The notes under the pieces are model-generated. The model saw nothing but the letters and a program-made list of their open reading frames with translations. It was not told where the DNA came from and did not search any database. Position numbers and translations under genes: made by a program. DNA of 64,000 bases from Heliorestis convoluta (GTDB taxonomy: Bacteria > Bacillota > Desulfitobacteriia > Heliobacteriales > Heliobacteriaceae), in the NCBI RefSeq assembly GCF_009649955.1, contig NZ_CP045875.1, positions 1,221,501-1,285,500 on the forward strand, in the 5' to 3' direction. Every line of letters begins with the position of its first letter. Within the stretch, counting starts at the first letter, position 1. This document shows, piece by piece, positions 3,419 to 20,839 of this stretch.

Positions 3419-3472
3419 GTTTTCAGGGAGGCTCTTTTGCGCCCCAAAAAATCAAAATTAAGTAACTCTAAA

Positions 3473-3636
3473 GAAGCTCATCACCTTAACCGGTGGTGGG
3501 CTTTTATTTTTTTATCTACGAAGCATATTCATGCAAAATTATTTTTCTTGGAAAAAAGGCCAGATCAACACTACATCTAGTAGCTTGAAATCCAGCCCGA
3601 TACTATACCTAGGTTTTTTATCTAAATCGGATCATG
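3473..3636 (+). repeat. ~165-bp repeat block, copy 1 (terminator plus linker)
   Basis: The block starts with a terminator hairpin (AGCTCATCACC / GGTGGTGGGCT, then T-rich), runs through GGCCAGATCAACACTA and ends at GGATCAT. Close copies are at 6061-6219 and 20668-20832. In each copy the sequence right after GGATCAT becomes a fragment of a serine recombinase gene, entered at a different point. Confidence 0.75.
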
Positions 3637-3662
3637 GGGCGCCGTACTCTGCCAGAAGTCAG

Positions 3663-4162
3663 TCACCATAGACTTCCTGAACCACAAGCGCGTCCCCAAC
3701 CGAGATATCTTGCCACAATACTACATTAAGGACCACCACCCGGCCATTATATCGGAAGAAGAATTCCAAGCCGTTCAACAGGAGATCAAACGCCGATATA
3801 ACATGCGCAAAGATCCCGATGGCAAGTATCGAATGAACTATAGTGGAAAAGCCTCTTTTTCCAATAAACTTTTCTGCGGCCATTGCGGCAGGCCTGTGGT
3901 CAGACGCAGACTAACATCCCAAACAAATGGCGAGAAGTATCTTTTCTCAGCCTGGCAATGTCGAGTACCGGTAGGGAGAGACCCAGACTTTAAAGGTTGC
4001 AATGGAAGGTACGTTTGGGAGATTGATTTAGAAGATTGTTTCACAGAGCTTCTCCGTGAAATGCGCAACAATAGGGATGAAGTTATCGCAGATGCAGAGC
4101 AGGCCATAGCAGATAAAAGGTTATCGGAAAAGGAGATTCAAGGCTCAGTAGTTACATTGTAA
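3663..4162 (+). pseudogene. Large serine recombinase, C-terminal fragment
   Basis: An open frame without a start reads VTIDFLNHKRVPNRDILPQ and then the recombinase domain: HHPAIISEEEFQAVQQ, the zinc ribbon CGHCGRPVVRR ... WQCR ... CNGRYV, and the beginning of the C-terminal helices. The N-terminal resolvase domain with the catalytic Ser is absent. The piece begins right after the repeat block, so it was created by deletion or rearrangement. Internal ATG codons exist but a functional product is unlikely. Confidence 0.75.
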
Positions 4163-4392: not shown

Positions 4393-4398
4393 TATAAT
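4393..4398 (+). promoter_or_regulatory. -10 box (TATAAT) for the tandem-hairpin RNA and DUF3800 gene
   Basis: A perfect TATAAT lies ~14 bp before the first hairpin; the -35 region is weak. Transcription from here would start almost exactly at the hairpins. Confidence 0.45.
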
Positions 4399-4411
4399 TA
4401 AAAGTAGGAAA

Positions 4412-4510
4412 AAAAAGATGGCTCAGCCTGCAATAACGGTAGCGGGGAAAAGCCATCTTTTTCGTACAAATGTTTCCAGCCCTGCAATATCGGCAGCGGG
4501 GAAAGAAACA
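4412..4510 (+). ncRNA. Tandem structured RNA upstream of DUF3800 (candidate DUF3800-associated motif)
   Basis: There are two hairpins in a row. The first has a 12-bp stem (4412-4423 with 4451-4462), the second a 6-bp stem (4471-4476 with 4505-4510). The stems differ in sequence, but the loops are nearly identical: CAGCC, then TGCAATA, CGG and AGCGGGGAAA. A conserved loop on unrelated stems is a mark of structured RNA. Families of conserved RNAs upstream of DUF3800 genes have been described computationally; which class this is, if any, I cannot say. The DUF3800 start lies 90 bp downstream. Confidence 0.65.
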
Positions 4511-4600
4511 CTGTCTTTAATTTAGTTGCTGTACAAATATCTTATAGCTTCTATATCCTATTGTCAACAGAAAGGTTAAAAAATATAACAGGGGGTTCTT

Positions 4601-5566
4601 ATGAACTATCTAATATATTTTGATGAGAGCAATAAAATAGATCAATCTAATAAAGATTATTCTTACTATGGCGCTTTTGGAGACTATGATAGATCGCTGG
4701 CGAACTTAGTAAAAAAGGTAGCCCGAATATACAAAGAAAATAATTCAAAAAGTGAGCTGCATTTTACAGCGTACAAAAGTGACAATAGCGTAAAAAAATA
4801 TTTTCAGGTTTTGCATTCTGTATTACAGGAAGACATTCGAATCAACATTCTAATCGTTAACAACAACGATGCACTTAAGGCTGCTTCAAATATTGGTTTA
4901 TCGCCCAAAGAATTAAGAAGCTTATTTTACATTAAGATACCTGAGAGACTATTCTATGGTATCATAAGGGATTTGTTCTCAAATATACCCAAAGGTGAAG
5001 CGGTCAATGTAAAAATTAAAATAGACTGTAATGATGAGTACGATAACTTAGATTTAAATAATAAATTGATCGAACAGATGAATGCTCACTCGGCATATCG
5101 TAATAAAAACTACAGAGTTAATAAAGTGATTTCACAAGATTCCAATAAATCCATCCCACTTCAAATTATTGATACTTTTATGGGGATTGTCGTGTTTTTA
5201 CTTGAAAAAGGTTACACGCAAAACTCAACCGCATCAATTGTAAAAGCCGACTTAATTTACAGGGTGTTGTCTGAGCAGGAAAACATCCTCCGCTTTCAAG
5301 AAAAAATTCGATTGTTTAAATGGACTGGGAATGAAGAACTAACTCAGATAAACATCTCAGATTATTTATCTCCGTTTATGGTCTATAAAACATCATTTGA
5401 TATAGAAGAGACTACAAAACTACAGAGGATATTAGCTTCCAATCCAGGCATAAGTACAACCGAATTAAGAAAAGAAATGAATTACTCCAATCGTCAACTT
5501 AGACTGTTGCTAGGGTATATAGACCAGATAGATGGTTTAGGTAGAAACAACTTTTTACGTATTTAG
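4601..5566 (+). CDS. DUF3800 domain protein
   Basis: 321 aa from the ATG at 4601, preceded by AGGGGGTTCTT. Family marks in order: YFDESNK at residues 6-12 (the hallmark DES), an ELHFTAYK segment, the acidic IKIDCNDEYD strand and IPLQIIDTFMG. These acidic residues suit the RNase H-like fold proposed for DUF3800. The C-terminal ~45 residues look like a winged helix (LASNPGISTTELRKEM). Gene is AT-rich compared with neighbours, so probably acquired. The family is found with mobile and defence-like genes and its function is unproven. The tandem-hairpin RNA sits directly upstream. Confidence 0.75.
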   Translation: MNYLIYFDESNKIDQSNKDYSYYGAFGDYDRSLANLVKKVARIYKENNSKSELHFTAYKSDNSVKKYFQVLHSVLQEDIRINILIVNNNDALKAASNIGLSPKELRSLFYIKIPERLFYGIIRDLFSNIPKGEAVNVKIKIDCNDEYDNLDLNNKLIEQMNAHSAYRNKNYRVNKVISQDSNKSIPLQIIDTFMGIVVFLLEKGYTQNSTASIVKADLIYRVLSEQENILRFQEKIRLFKWTGNEELTQINISDYLSPFMVYKTSFDIEETTKLQRILASNPGISTTELRKEMNYSNRQLRLLLGYIDQIDGLGRNNFLRI

Positions 5567-5945: not shown

Positions 5946-6060
5946 TTCAAAAACCCCTTCTATGCTCTTAAGTTTAGTTTAGCAAAAAACATGCTTTCCT
6001 AAACCAAACAAAGAGAGGGGTTGGTATGGTGGGGTGAAAAAACCAAATCGGTGTTCCTCT

Positions 6061-6219
6061 AACGAAGCTCATCACCTTAACTGGTGGTGGGCTTTTTTGA
6101 TCTATACAGCATACTCATGCACAACCATATTCCGGGCAAAAAAGGGCCAGATCAGCACTATATCTAGTACCAAAAACAAAGCTTGATACTAGATATAGTT
6201 ATTTTATCCTTGGATCATC
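6061..6219 (+). repeat. ~165-bp repeat block, copy 2
   Basis: Same terminator hairpin and linker as at 3473, with GGCCAGATCAGCACTA and the GATACTAGATATAG segment, ending GGATCAT at 6219. Directly followed by the middle part of a serine recombinase gene. Confidence 0.7.
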
Positions 6220-10932: not shown

Positions 10933-11841
10933 TTACTCTGCCACCTGAAGGAGCTTGACAGCTTCCGGTACGATCAGTTTTGCATCCAGCCTTTCGTAAG
11001 CTGCATAACCGATTTGTCCTTCAAGGATGTATTTCTCCTTCAAGACTTTTATGGAAAGGGGTTGACGCTCAATGAGCCAAAGATAGCTGAAATCTCCAAA
11101 AGCGATAGGTTTTTTGCCGCTCTCGATCTCTGGCATATATGGCGAGTATTCTACTGGCTTTCCAAGGATGGTATTGTCAGTATGATTCCATATATAATTA
11201 CCGCTTGCGTCTTTTAAGGTTCTGAGATACAGTGCTGTCTCATCGTTCACAACCCATACAGCATTTTTTCTGTAATGCTTATCGAGGGAGAAGTACAGTT
11301 TGATGATTTCATCATAGGTGATGGCATCTGTAGCTGTTGTGATACCTACTTCAGCACCAGCGGTTGGGTGAAGAATTCCTACCGGTGCATCATTACCATC
11401 TCCGTTAATAAGTGCGTTTTCTTCTTCCCTACCAAATCTACGAGCAAATTCATTCTTGAGATATTTTTCGATATCGAATTTATTATCTGTAACGAAGGTA
11501 TGTTTTAATTTTGCAAGGCTCGCTAGTTTATGAGAATCGACGGTGAACTGGCTGATGGTATCGGAGCTTTCTGGTATAGCAACCGCTTCACCAACCCATT
11601 CAGCTTTTCCGGTTGAGGTAGCTGCATGAATCTTGCCTTCTGGTGATGTGGTTTTAATGACCGTTCCGATTCTTCTGAAGAGGTTTTCTTTTTCCAGTGC
11701 TGGTGTGTAGCTGCTTAGAAACTCATAGGGAGCTGGATAGCTACCAGTGCTATCTGCCATATTGCTCATTTCCGGATAGACTTCATGCTGAATTCTCATA
11801 GTGTTCCAAAATGCTTTGTTGTACATACTTTGGTTTGCCAT
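10933..11841 (-). CDS. HK97-fold phage major capsid protein
   Basis: 302 aa, ATG at 11841 after AGGAGGAGTAAATC. HK97-type marks: the N-arm, the E-loop/P-domain segment (TSTGKAEWVGEAVAIPESS), the spine-helix region FDIEKYLKNEFARRFGREEE, GDGNDAPVGIL, and the A-domain end QIGYAAYERLDAKLIVPEA. Full-length HK97 capsid proteins usually carry a ~100-aa N-terminal delta domain or a scaffold; this one lacks it, and no protease, portal or terminase is near. It is the last gene of the leftward operon, 19 bp after a 78-aa gene. In a satellite it could build a small capsid or redirect a helper's. Confidence 0.85.
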   Translation of the reverse strand: MANQSMYNKAFWNTMRIQHEVYPEMSNMADSTGSYPAPYEFLSSYTPALEKENLFRRIGTVIKTTSPEGKIHAATSTGKAEWVGEAVAIPESSDTISQFTVDSHKLASLAKLKHTFVTDNKFDIEKYLKNEFARRFGREEENALINGDGNDAPVGILHPTAGAEVGITTATDAITYDEIIKLYFSLDKHYRKNAVWVVNDETALYLRTLKDASGNYIWNHTDNTILGKPVEYSPYMPEIESGKKPIAFGDFSYLWLIERQPLSIKVLKEKYILEGQIGYAAYERLDAKLIVPEAVKLLQVAE

Positions 11842-11860
11842 GATTTACTCCTCCTAAATT

Positions 11861-12097
11861 TTAAGATGCTTTGATCCAGTTACGGGTTATCAAGTAATCG
11901 GTGGCTTCTTTTAATGTCTGGAAGTAGTAGCCGGAGCCTCGGTGCTGAATGCACCAGTGACCTTTGCTCTCTGCTCTTTTATCTCTCATCACCACCACAG
12001 GATGCAAATCATCCTTTGGGATAATGCGGATCACTTCAAAGTTCTCCAAGTCCAGACTTTTTCTTAGAGGTTCTGGTAATTCGTTTTCTCTTGCCAT
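11861..12097 (-). CDS. Small phage-associated protein (78 aa)
   Basis: ATG at 12097 with GGGAGGTGAAAAC just upstream. Starts MARENELPEPLRKSLDLENF, with an alpha/beta pattern and WCIQHRGSGYYFQT near the end. Family not recognised. It lies between the iteron array and the capsid gene, cotranscribed with the latter (19-bp gap). It could be a capsid cofactor or a regulator; position is the only evidence. Confidence 0.6.
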   Translation of the reverse strand: MARENELPEPLRKSLDLENFEVIRIIPKDDLHPVVVMRDKRAESKGHWCIQHRGSGYYFQTLKEATDYLITRNWIKAS

Positions 12098-12125
12098 GTT
12101 TTCACCTCCCATTCATAAAAATTTG

Positions 12126-12416
12126 GTGACAGTAGTGACAGTACGGTGACAGTTATTTTTGTGCACTGTCACCTGATGAAAGCCTTATGTATCAAGGCTT
12201 ATAAGGACTTTAGTGACAGTAGTGACAGTAAACGCAGGTTTATCTTCACACTCTTATATAATCCTCTCGGGTATTTATTCATTTTTGCTTGTTCTCTATA
12301 GAAGTTATAAAAACTGTCACTACTGTCACCAACCATTCTGAAACCATTGTTATTACTGGGTTTATCAAGGTGACAGTTGTGGATTTTTACTGTCACCTAA
12401 CTGTCACTACTGTCAC
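12126..12416. other. Iteron array, likely replication origin of the element
   Basis: Twelve exact copies of GTGACAGT or its complement ACTGTCAC. Forward: 12126, 12135, 12146, 12213, 12222, 12370. Reverse: 12165, 12313, 12322, 12389, 12400, 12409. Four are paired at 9-bp spacing. The forward pair at 12213 and the reverse pair at 12313 flank an ~80-bp AT-rich core, giving a symmetric layout. The last copy overlaps the primase stop codon. Iterons flanking an AT-rich core next to the primase-helicase gene is the arrangement of satellite origins such as those of SaPIs. Confidence 0.8.
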
Positions 12417-14665
12417 TGATTTGATGCAAGAAGAGGAAACTCATCGTAGCCATAGGCTCTTTGATACCTGCTCTTTGCTTCATCAGTTAAGGTATATCTA
12501 TGGTAAAAAGTACCGCCTTTTCCCCGGCGAACGGTCATATCCGAGAAAGTGGTCCCCAGATAATCAGCCAGTTCTGTTCGGAACTCTTTAGCGGTCTTTG
12601 CATAGCCATGATTGTTATCCATGCACCAAGCCTTATACACATCAAAGACTCTACCGGTAGTACAGCTGTCTTTGATTTTGCCAAGGGGTCTTTCTTCCAT
12701 ACATTCTGTAAAAAAGGCAATCACTGTATTGTTTTCAGCCATATAAACTTCTCTTGCCTTCTCTACACACTGTGGTTCTGTAAAAGTGTAGCCATTCTTA
12801 ATGACCTGAGTGAGCGCCATAATAGCCTTATGGACAATGCCATCGCGCTCAGCATACATTTTGTCCAGCAGGAACTTATCCTGCTTTTCCTTTGGTATCA
12901 CATTGTTGCAGTTGACTTGCATGATCCGATCATAGACCCACTGACCATCATCTCCGCCAAACTTAGGCAGACGATTCATACAAAACCAGAAGAGTCCTTT
13001 GTAGATGAATTCAAATCCATTTTGACCTTTGAATTCTGCGAAGATGCTATCTCCACCGGTACATTGTTTAAAGATGCGAAGTTCACCAACTGTTAAGAAG
13101 CTCATATCGGAGCTTCCAGCAAGGCGCTTATTATAAAGATTTCCAGTGCCAAACCGGGACTCAATCTCTTTGAGATCAATTCCGATGAAGTTTCCATTAC
13201 CGAGTAATCTTTCTGTCAGACTCTTTAGCTGGGATTTCCCTGTATCTCCTTTACCGACCATGAAGAGAGACTTCTTCATCCGGTGACCTTTCACATTAGA
13301 TAGGCACACTCCCATAAATTCAAGGAGCAGATTTTCAACCGCCTTATCGCCACTGGTTAAATCATTCATGAATTTATCAAAGACCGGTGTGGGTTTAGCA
13401 CTCCCCAGCCAATTGCAAGGGATCTGGATGGTACTCATAACCTCTGGACTATGAGGAAGCAACTTCATATCAGAAAGTCTTAGAATGCCATTTTGGAAAT
13501 TGATGATATCCTCATCGGCATTCAGCTCCTCGCTGGTTTTGAATTTCAGATCGGTGGTGATTTGTCCAAAGACTTCATTCACATCACGCATTTGCAGGAT
13601 GCTCTCATCAAAGGAGGTAATATAATTTTTGATGATACCTTTTAGCATTTCATCGGCATAAAGTCTGTAACATCCATCCTCGTAGACATAGCGTAAGACA
13701 CCGCCTCTGGCACTGTCTCGAACGAAGATGTAGTGAAGGTTCTCCCGAATATGTCTCGCCAGTAGAGGGCAATTGACCTTCATGCGTTTGGAACGCTCAT
13801 CGTAGTAGATGTAGGGCGGTCTGCTTTTACTGCCTATGTAGAACTTGCCATGACAGCCTTTGATGGCATTTTCAATAGTAGAAGTTCGATAGTCTTCCCG
13901 CTCCCATTTTTCCCTGTAGAGCTTCGATTGTCTAAACAGGCTATCCATCTGATCAGCGTTGCCGCCGGTGTAGAAGGAGAGAATGTTGCAGAGAGCTTGG
14001 TCTGCTTCTGATGGACTTCCGTAACCGGAAATATCCCCCTTGTCAAAGAGGGCAATGAACTTTTCTCCATTTTTGGCTTTTCTAGCTGTGACGATAATGT
14101 CGAAGTGATCACAAGAATCTTCTTTGAAGCGTTCCTTTTTCATGTACTTATCGAGGAAGGTAAGAACTTCATCAGTCCGATCAGCTAATGGCACATCATT
14201 GATTGTTTCACCCGTAAAGGTAAGATATCGATTGGTAAGTCCACCGATGTATATTTCCATATCGTTGTGGGGGTTTTTGCTGTAGTAATCGCTGGATAGT
14301 TTTCCTTTGTTAGAAGGAATCTTCTCAACATCCACTTTGAATAGATGGTGAATGCCTTTAGAACTGGGGGAGAGTTCTTCATAAGTATTCATCAGCTCTC
14401 GGACTTCTTCTGCTAGAATACTGTTTCTATCAATATGATCGAGATCAATGCCACCGATGCCTTTAGGGAGTACTAGACCAATGCCATCAAACCCATTAGC
14501 TTTTACTGCAACTGTGGCCTCATCATAACTTGCCCACTGGAAATTATACTTTTTACTGGTTCCGGTTTTATAGCCTTTGGTGTTATATAAGACTTTGGTA
14601 CGGCGGCTATGTTTTGTTTCATATCGCCAACATACCCAGATCTTTTGCTGTTTTAGTTGTTCCAT
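12413..14665 (-). CDS. P4-type primase-helicase (PrimPol-like + D5_N + SF3 helicase)
   Basis: 750 aa, ATG at 14665. The N-terminal ~180 residues form an archaeo-eukaryotic primase-like domain (KGIGGIDLDHID with the DxD metal ligands, then SSKGIHHLFK). A linker with D5_N character follows. The SF3 helicase has Walker A MVGKGDTGKSQ near residue 470, and a C-terminal winged-helix region (ELADYLGTTFSDMTVRRGKGG). This is the replication initiator of many satellites and plasmids; it probably binds the iterons that begin at its stop codon. It follows three small genes on the same strand. Confidence 0.85.
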   Translation of the reverse strand: MEQLKQQKIWVCWRYETKHSRRTKVLYNTKGYKTGTSKKYNFQWASYDEATVAVKANGFDGIGLVLPKGIGGIDLDHIDRNSILAEEVRELMNTYEELSPSSKGIHHLFKVDVEKIPSNKGKLSSDYYSKNPHNDMEIYIGGLTNRYLTFTGETINDVPLADRTDEVLTFLDKYMKKERFKEDSCDHFDIIVTARKAKNGEKFIALFDKGDISGYGSPSEADQALCNILSFYTGGNADQMDSLFRQSKLYREKWEREDYRTSTIENAIKGCHGKFYIGSKSRPPYIYYDERSKRMKVNCPLLARHIRENLHYIFVRDSARGGVLRYVYEDGCYRLYADEMLKGIIKNYITSFDESILQMRDVNEVFGQITTDLKFKTSEELNADEDIINFQNGILRLSDMKLLPHSPEVMSTIQIPCNWLGSAKPTPVFDKFMNDLTSGDKAVENLLLEFMGVCLSNVKGHRMKKSLFMVGKGDTGKSQLKSLTERLLGNGNFIGIDLKEIESRFGTGNLYNKRLAGSSDMSFLTVGELRIFKQCTGGDSIFAEFKGQNGFEFIYKGLFWFCMNRLPKFGGDDGQWVYDRIMQVNCNNVIPKEKQDKFLLDKMYAERDGIVHKAIMALTQVIKNGYTFTEPQCVEKAREVYMAENNTVIAFFTECMEERPLGKIKDSCTTGRVFDVYKAWCMDNNHGYAKTAKEFRTELADYLGTTFSDMTVRRGKGGTFYHRYTLTDEAKSRYQRAYGYDEFPLLASNQ

Positions 14666-20531: not shown

Positions 20532-20667
20532 ATGCGAAGCAAAGAATTCAAAGATTGAATGACTATTTGAGATCCAATAACCCTTTGTAAAGACACCTCT
20601 GAGCCTCGCAGACTTAGTCGGGATAGAAGGGAAGGTATCCCCAAAATATCAAAATGAAGTTCTTCTA

Positions 20668-20832
20668 ACGAAGCTCATCACCTTAACCGGTGGTGGGCTT
20701 TTATTTTTTTATCTATGAAGCATATTCACAAAATTATTTTTCTCGGAAAAAAGGCCAGGTTAACACTACATCCAGCAACCCAAAACCCAGCCCGATACTA
20801 GATATAGATTTTTTATCTAAATCGGATCATGG
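20668..20832 (+). repeat. ~165-bp repeat block, copy 3
   Basis: Nearly identical to 3473-3636: same terminator hairpin, GGTGGTGGGCTTTTATTTTT, CCAGCCCGATACTA and the closing TCTAAATCGGATCAT. Followed by another decayed recombinase piece. Confidence 0.75.
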
Positions 20833-20839
20833 GCCGGCC

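Follow-up and report, generated by a model that had tools for sequence, protein, structure and literature searches.

Genes of the DUF3800 family are widespread, and several RNA motifs adjoin them. Rfam classes the DUF3800-associated RNAs as sRNA genes; in the loci that we fetched, DUF3800-VII (RF02967), -VIII (RF03075) and -IX (RF02968) lay downstream of the protein gene and convergent with it, DUF3800-XI (RF02975) lay upstream on the same strand, and the matches to these models were 48–91 nt long. A literature search found no paper assigning a function to the pair of a DUF3800 gene and its adjacent RNA. Outside this family, RCd22 of C. difficile, an RNA of 88–132 nt with a sigma-A promoter, two repeated hairpins and a terminator, binds and neutralises AbiF (PMC12373285). 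Type III toxin–antitoxin systems are defined by a co-directional, co-transcribed order of RNA and toxin, with a terminator before the toxin (PMC8860590).

We analyzed a stretch of 64 000 nt of the Heliorestis convoluta genome (contig NZ_CP045875.1, positions 1 221 501–1 285 500), hereafter ‘the window’. It carries a two-hairpin region at 4412–4512, adjoined by a DUF3800 open reading frame at 4601–5566. The first-pass annotation had described a pair of hairpins that differ in their stems but share a nearly identical element of 27/28 nt, in front of AT-rich genes; both statements were borne out, the hairpin region folding better than its shuffled versions (z = −3.55 for the region, z = −5.0 for hairpin 1) and the locus having 33% G+C versus 45% for the window. 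The RNA found no Rfam match at or above the gathering score, either in the window or in ten loci of the subfamily, nor any in the hairpin region at E = 10. Like the Rfam DUF3800 RNAs, it is small and structured and adjoins a DUF3800 gene; in contrast to them, it is placed upstream in divergent orientation and is built of two tandem hairpins. We count it among the DUF3800-associated RNAs, as one more member with a placement of its own; a published but uncurated equivalent may exist outside the Rfam models.

The predicted small RNA gene is about 124 nt long (4409–4532, minus strand), with the start inferred from the −10 box and the end taken as the U-run. Its −35 box, TTGACA (4562–4567, minus strand), stands 17 nt from the −10 box, TAAGAT (4539–4544, minus strand; 10/12 consensus matches). 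Next in RNA order comes hairpin 2, the 5′ hairpin (4469–4512, minus strand), with outer stem AGUGUUUC/GAAACAUU and inner element UUUCCCCGCUGCCGAUAUUGCAGGGCUG; it is followed by hairpin 1, the 3′ hairpin (4412–4462, minus strand), with outer stem AAAAAGAUGGCU/AGCCAUCUUUUU and inner element UUUCCCCGCUACCGUUAUUGCAGGCUG. Eight T residues (4409–4416, minus strand) after hairpin 1 complete a predicted intrinsic terminator. The stems of the hairpins differ (AAAAAGATGGCT/AGCCATCTTTTT versus an 8-bp stem with one wobble), while the inner element of 27/28 nt is common to both.

The strand was decided by comparison of 45 loci, the window included; these were found protein-first and are the ones with a readable upstream region. 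A promoter of the TTGACA-N17-TATAAT type scored at least 10/12 on the minus strand in 40 of the 45 (shuffled mean, 8.4), with TTGAC kept in most loci, and on the plus strand in two. Directly after hairpin 1, a run of at least four T was present on the minus strand in 42 loci; in the other three (L043, L049 and L054) a separate hairpin lies beyond it. Of the non-Watson–Crick pairs in the 82 outer stems, 67 read as G·U on the minus strand and nine as A·C, equivalent to G·U on the plus strand. For the innermost seven pairs the counts were 28 versus 1 in hairpin 2, where counting is free of U-run bias, and 13 versus 6 in hairpin 1; the A·C cases, in our reading, belong mostly to a single clade, where a bulge is misaligned by ungapped counting. 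Folding energy favoured the minus strand in 36/45 and 30/45 loci, and the consensus fold reached −18.7 kcal/mol there versus −13.5 kcal/mol on the plus strand. From the minus-strand promoter, the U-run, the G·U wobbles and the folding energies, the RNA appears to be a separate gene on the minus strand, divergent from DUF3800.

These results bear on the first-pass view that the hairpin RNA drives the DUF3800 gene from a TATAAT box at 4393. The conserved promoter and terminator are both read from the other strand, and a role of the hairpins as a leader that drives DUF3800 is not supported. The box itself has a poor −35 region and is present at that place in only 13 of the 45 loci, and plus-strand promoter scores before hairpin 1 stood at 8.36 against 8.33 for shuffled sequence. 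A plus-strand mRNA leader could still appeal to those 13 boxes and to three loci (L047, L050 and L052) where a LexA-like box, GAAC-N4-GTTC, precedes a TATAAT on the plus strand ∼40 nt to the left of hairpin 1, an arrangement that suggests SOS-linked transcription there; with wobble asymmetry, promoter and terminator all favouring the minus strand and plus-strand scores at chance, we consider such a leader very improbable.

One could also suppose that the inverted repeats act as DNA, as sites of recombination or replication. The setting is indeed mobile, and two copies of a dispersed repeat of ∼150–200 bp (3441–3660, 6057–6208 and 20639–20836; copies 77–88% alike) flank the DUF3800 module. Just upstream, 3710–4162 encodes what is left of a large serine recombinase, a C-terminal part with Recombinase and zinc ribbon domains. 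Cruciforms, however, predict no asymmetry between G·U and A·C, observed here as 67 to 9, and a role as DNA is extremely improbable. Further along, the minus strand of the window carries a phage capsid gene and an NrS-1/D5-type primase–helicase, a phage-satellite-like region (10933–14665).

A third alternative keeps the minus-strand RNA and makes it mainly a cis regulator, holding DUF3800 expression low by transcription interference or by antisense pairing with its mRNA. The RNA promoter does overlap the DUF3800 leader, the −35 box preceding the start codon by 34–39 nt in the window and by about 14–60 nt in the other loci, and a consensus plus-strand promoter between hairpin 2 and the gene was seen in only 2 of the 45 loci. 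Antisense action alone, however, would leave unexplained the matched inner elements, the covarying stems and the selection for folding on the minus strand; we judge this role quite improbable.

The fold is well defined across loci. A covariance model with the window RNA in its training set placed the RNA at 4416–4513 on the minus strand with 74 bits. When the two-hairpin fold was imposed on 31 RNAs, 92.6% of cells were paired and 24 of the 29 pairs varied on both sides, with a covariation score of 0.534 versus 0.237 for shuffled alignments and at most 0.13 when the fold was slid; in hairpin 2, both the outer and the inner stem covary. In each hairpin the outer stem leads to an internal loop, where UUU faces CUG, then to a short inner stem that has a conserved mismatch, A/C facing A, and finally to a terminal loop, in which ACCGUU or UCGUU is often found. 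We also considered whether the loop CCGU pairs with an ACGG in the leader and dropped the idea, as such pairing fails in L028 and L045.

More revealing is how the parts of the two hairpins relate to each other. Within a locus the inner elements of hairpins 1 and 2 are 0.844 identical, between loci 0.622, and none of 10 000 permutations gave a value as high; for the outer stems the values are 0.293 and 0.279, matched by 3062 of 10 000 permutations, i.e. chance. A recent duplication is disfavoured, as it would have left the outer stems alike. The pattern fits one reader, presumably the DUF3800 protein, selecting the inner elements; a less simple explanation would be that gene conversion has acted repeatedly on the inner element and on no other part. 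With the elements matched and the stems unrelated, the comparison singles out the very nucleotides that the protein would be expected to read.

The association with DUF3800 was traced in both directions. A plasmid protein search gave homologues 45–69% identical on plasmids of the Bacillus group and Aerococcus, and a genome scan with a six-sequence alignment added 43 loci in Bacilli. The first-pass annotation would have been refuted by a lack of loop conservation upstream of related DUF3800 genes, but the loops are conserved throughout: in all 45 loci the DUF3800 gene is adjoined by a tandem pair of hairpins that differ in their stems and have the inner element in common. Three distant relatives (L003, L010 and L011; 21–26% identity) have a similar hairpin pair with other loop sequences. 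Starting from the RNA, a search of 400 Bacilli genomes returned four strong matches, two in known genomes and two new, both of the latter divergent from an intact DUF3800 homologue. Wherever the covariance model scored, it found one RNA copy per genome or record, a single one in the window genome, and its matches adjoin DUF3800. The exception is genome G479, where the match is to a second locus (L100, 96–871) whose DUF3800 gene is truncated at the N-terminal end: the RNA there is intact, the protein lacks its first 106 residues and a diverged copy lies elsewhere in the genome. Weak matches (L097–L099 and L081) were rejected, having no homologous protein by tblastn or lying far from it; those of L099 and L081, on reading, resemble ordinary terminators.

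A search of viral contigs and phages found nothing. Around 30 diverse DUF3800 genes the same tandem layout was not recovered, by a detector that misses cases with AT-rich stems (L043 and L029). Comparison among the loci shows the predicted RNA with its strand and structure, the conserved arrangement of promoter and terminator, and the constant link to this DUF3800 subfamily, and we are highly confident of the anatomy of the RNA and DUF3800 module as described. It is a pair of RNA and predicted nuclease, shared by many Gram-positive bacteria and travelling together.

In six or seven loci the RNA is kept beside a broken protein gene (L023, L038, L041, L045, L050, L052 and L100). We do not use this pattern of loss as evidence of toxicity; it is uninformative, the protein being a 6–7 times larger mutational target. 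In L052 (4785–4922) the linker between the hairpins is 52 nt long, compared with 0–18 nt elsewhere, and the adjacent DUF3800 gene is broken after 26 codons.

The protein (4601–5566, plus strand; 321 aa) is predicted to be an RNase-HII-like nuclease with a C-terminal helical domain. Its match to PF12686 covers 146 of 149 positions at E = 1e-3 and 20.3 bits, just below the cut-off of 21; the 69% identical plasmid homologue matches at E = 4e-7 and members of the subfamily pass the cut-off with 25.8, 28.4 and 31.3 bits, upholding the initial assignment of the adjacent gene to DUF3800. A sequence search of the PDB gave no match. For the AlphaFold2 model (pLDDT 92.9), the best Foldseek matches were RNase HII (E = 1.9e-4) and the nearest solved structures RNase HII, HIII and H2, with modest TM-scores to RNase HII of 0.4–0.55; an RNase-H-like fold and nuclease activity are predicted from the model. 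The RNase H active site consists of four carboxylates (PMC9719913). Across 29 homologues, four acids of the DUF3800 protein (D8, E9, D142 and D191) are unchanged, apart from an E replacing D142 in four distant ones, and we propose them as putative active-site acids by topology and conservation, without superposition. The helical C-terminal domain lies beyond the Pfam domain.

DUF3800 genes were present in 58 of the 399 genomes sampled in the phylum. Those compared here lie on plasmids, in islands, after groEL or after smpB, in some cases with restriction, TIR or Fic genes nearby, and we saw no conserved partner gene beside DUF3800 across the compared loci; on genomic context, the module is solitary, mobile and horizontally moving. 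The protein matches the profile of the PADLOC defence family PDC-M04A (E = 1e-9 to 9e-16), a family that is itself only a candidate and whose PADLOC description includes no RNA.

How does the module compare with the characterized systems? The first-pass annotation was reminded of type III toxin–antitoxin systems (ToxIN, CptIN and TenpIN), and part of this stands: a repeated small RNA lies beside a predicted nuclease in a mobile and defence-related setting. Gene order and terminator position do not agree. In type III systems −10 and −35 boxes precede the repeats on the toxin strand, whereas the window promoter is on the opposite strand; there is no terminator between repeats and gene, the U-run being at the far end, away from the gene. 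As to a tandem array of repeats, the window RNA has two, of the inner element only, on unrelated outer stems. The predicted fold is not that of ToxN/AbiQ, the best matches of the DUF3800 model being to RNase HII. Type III toxins are endoribonucleases, toxic when free and neutralised when bound by their RNA. As gene order, terminator position and fold depart from the definitions, we do not class the module as type III. The likeness to AbiF/RCd22 (Rfam motif RF03085) is closer, with an RNA of ∼100–130 nt, two hairpin repeats, a promoter, a terminator and an adjacent protein; however, RCd22 is co-directional with abiF, and the protein is of the Abi_2/AbiD/F type and not DUF3800. A guide array of the CRISPR or TIGR kind was rejected, as there are no variable spacer-like segments: RNAs of close relatives (L013/L017/L041; L029–L042) are near-identical, stems and linkers included.

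Given the anatomy so close to AbiF/RCd22, we favour a model in which the nuclease is bound and held in check by the RNA. In this proposal, a DUF3800 nuclease gene and a divergent, constitutive small RNA of ∼120 nt would form a two-part mobile module. Each hairpin would display one and the same element for recognition by the protein, mounted on an outer stem of its own; hairpin 1, the second in RNA order, would double as transcription terminator, and the DUF3800 protein would bind the inner elements of both. Abundant RNA would keep the RNase-HII-like nuclease inactive, or would be cut by it and stay bound; once transcription stops, e.g. because a phage infects the cell or the element is lost, the RNA, being short-lived, would vanish and free the nuclease. 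The logic would be that of type III toxin–antitoxin systems and AbiF, with a different gene order and protein fold. Direct binding of RNA and protein is probable on the comparative evidence. That the binding serves inhibition, as with an antitoxin, is argued by analogy and is held tentatively, at slightly below an even chance; the same grade applies to our best explanation as a whole, a two-binding-site RNA restraining the DUF3800 nuclease. Against it, the RNA does not lie upstream on the strand of the gene with a leaky terminator, and the usual route to an excess of antitoxin is inapplicable; also, the positions of DUF3800 RNAs vary, and no single regulatory layout is kept across the superfamily.

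The opposite sign of action is conceivable too. The RNA could be an activating cofactor, forming with the nuclease a ribonucleoprotein for defence against phages or plasmids, the protein being inactive without it. The fixed one-to-one association, the matched inner elements, the intact acidic residues, the defence-type neighbours and the PADLOC match are consistent with this, and Cas12a2 and VI-F CRISPR loci have other DUF3800 proteins as accessories (PMC10910872, PMC12669027). Yet the RNA has no variable guide-like segment, being near-identical among relatives with stems that pair with each other, and a cofactor would not need a second copy of the element; we regard this role as unlikely, if still worth serious attention. 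More broadly, one could speculate about an RNA-licensed immune nuclease, in which infection would switch an RNase-HII-fold DUF3800 protein on or off through the divergent two-hairpin RNA. The identical pair of elements would then set the stoichiometry, e.g. a protein dimer per RNA. We find this idea rather doubtful; if true, it would offer a mechanism for the whole DUF3800–RNA superfamily. The subfamily suits experimental tests: its promoter is clear, its RNA is compact and assigned to a strand and a fold, its predicted nuclease is modelled with confidence, and the module stands alone with two genes.

Other repeats and RNAs were also seen near DUF3800 genes. One of the diverse DUF3800 genes (L066) is flanked on both sides by CRISPR-DR2 repeats, and on a small plasmid (L010, 3843–3898) the Rfam Bacillus-plasmid RNA directly follows the DUF3800 gene.
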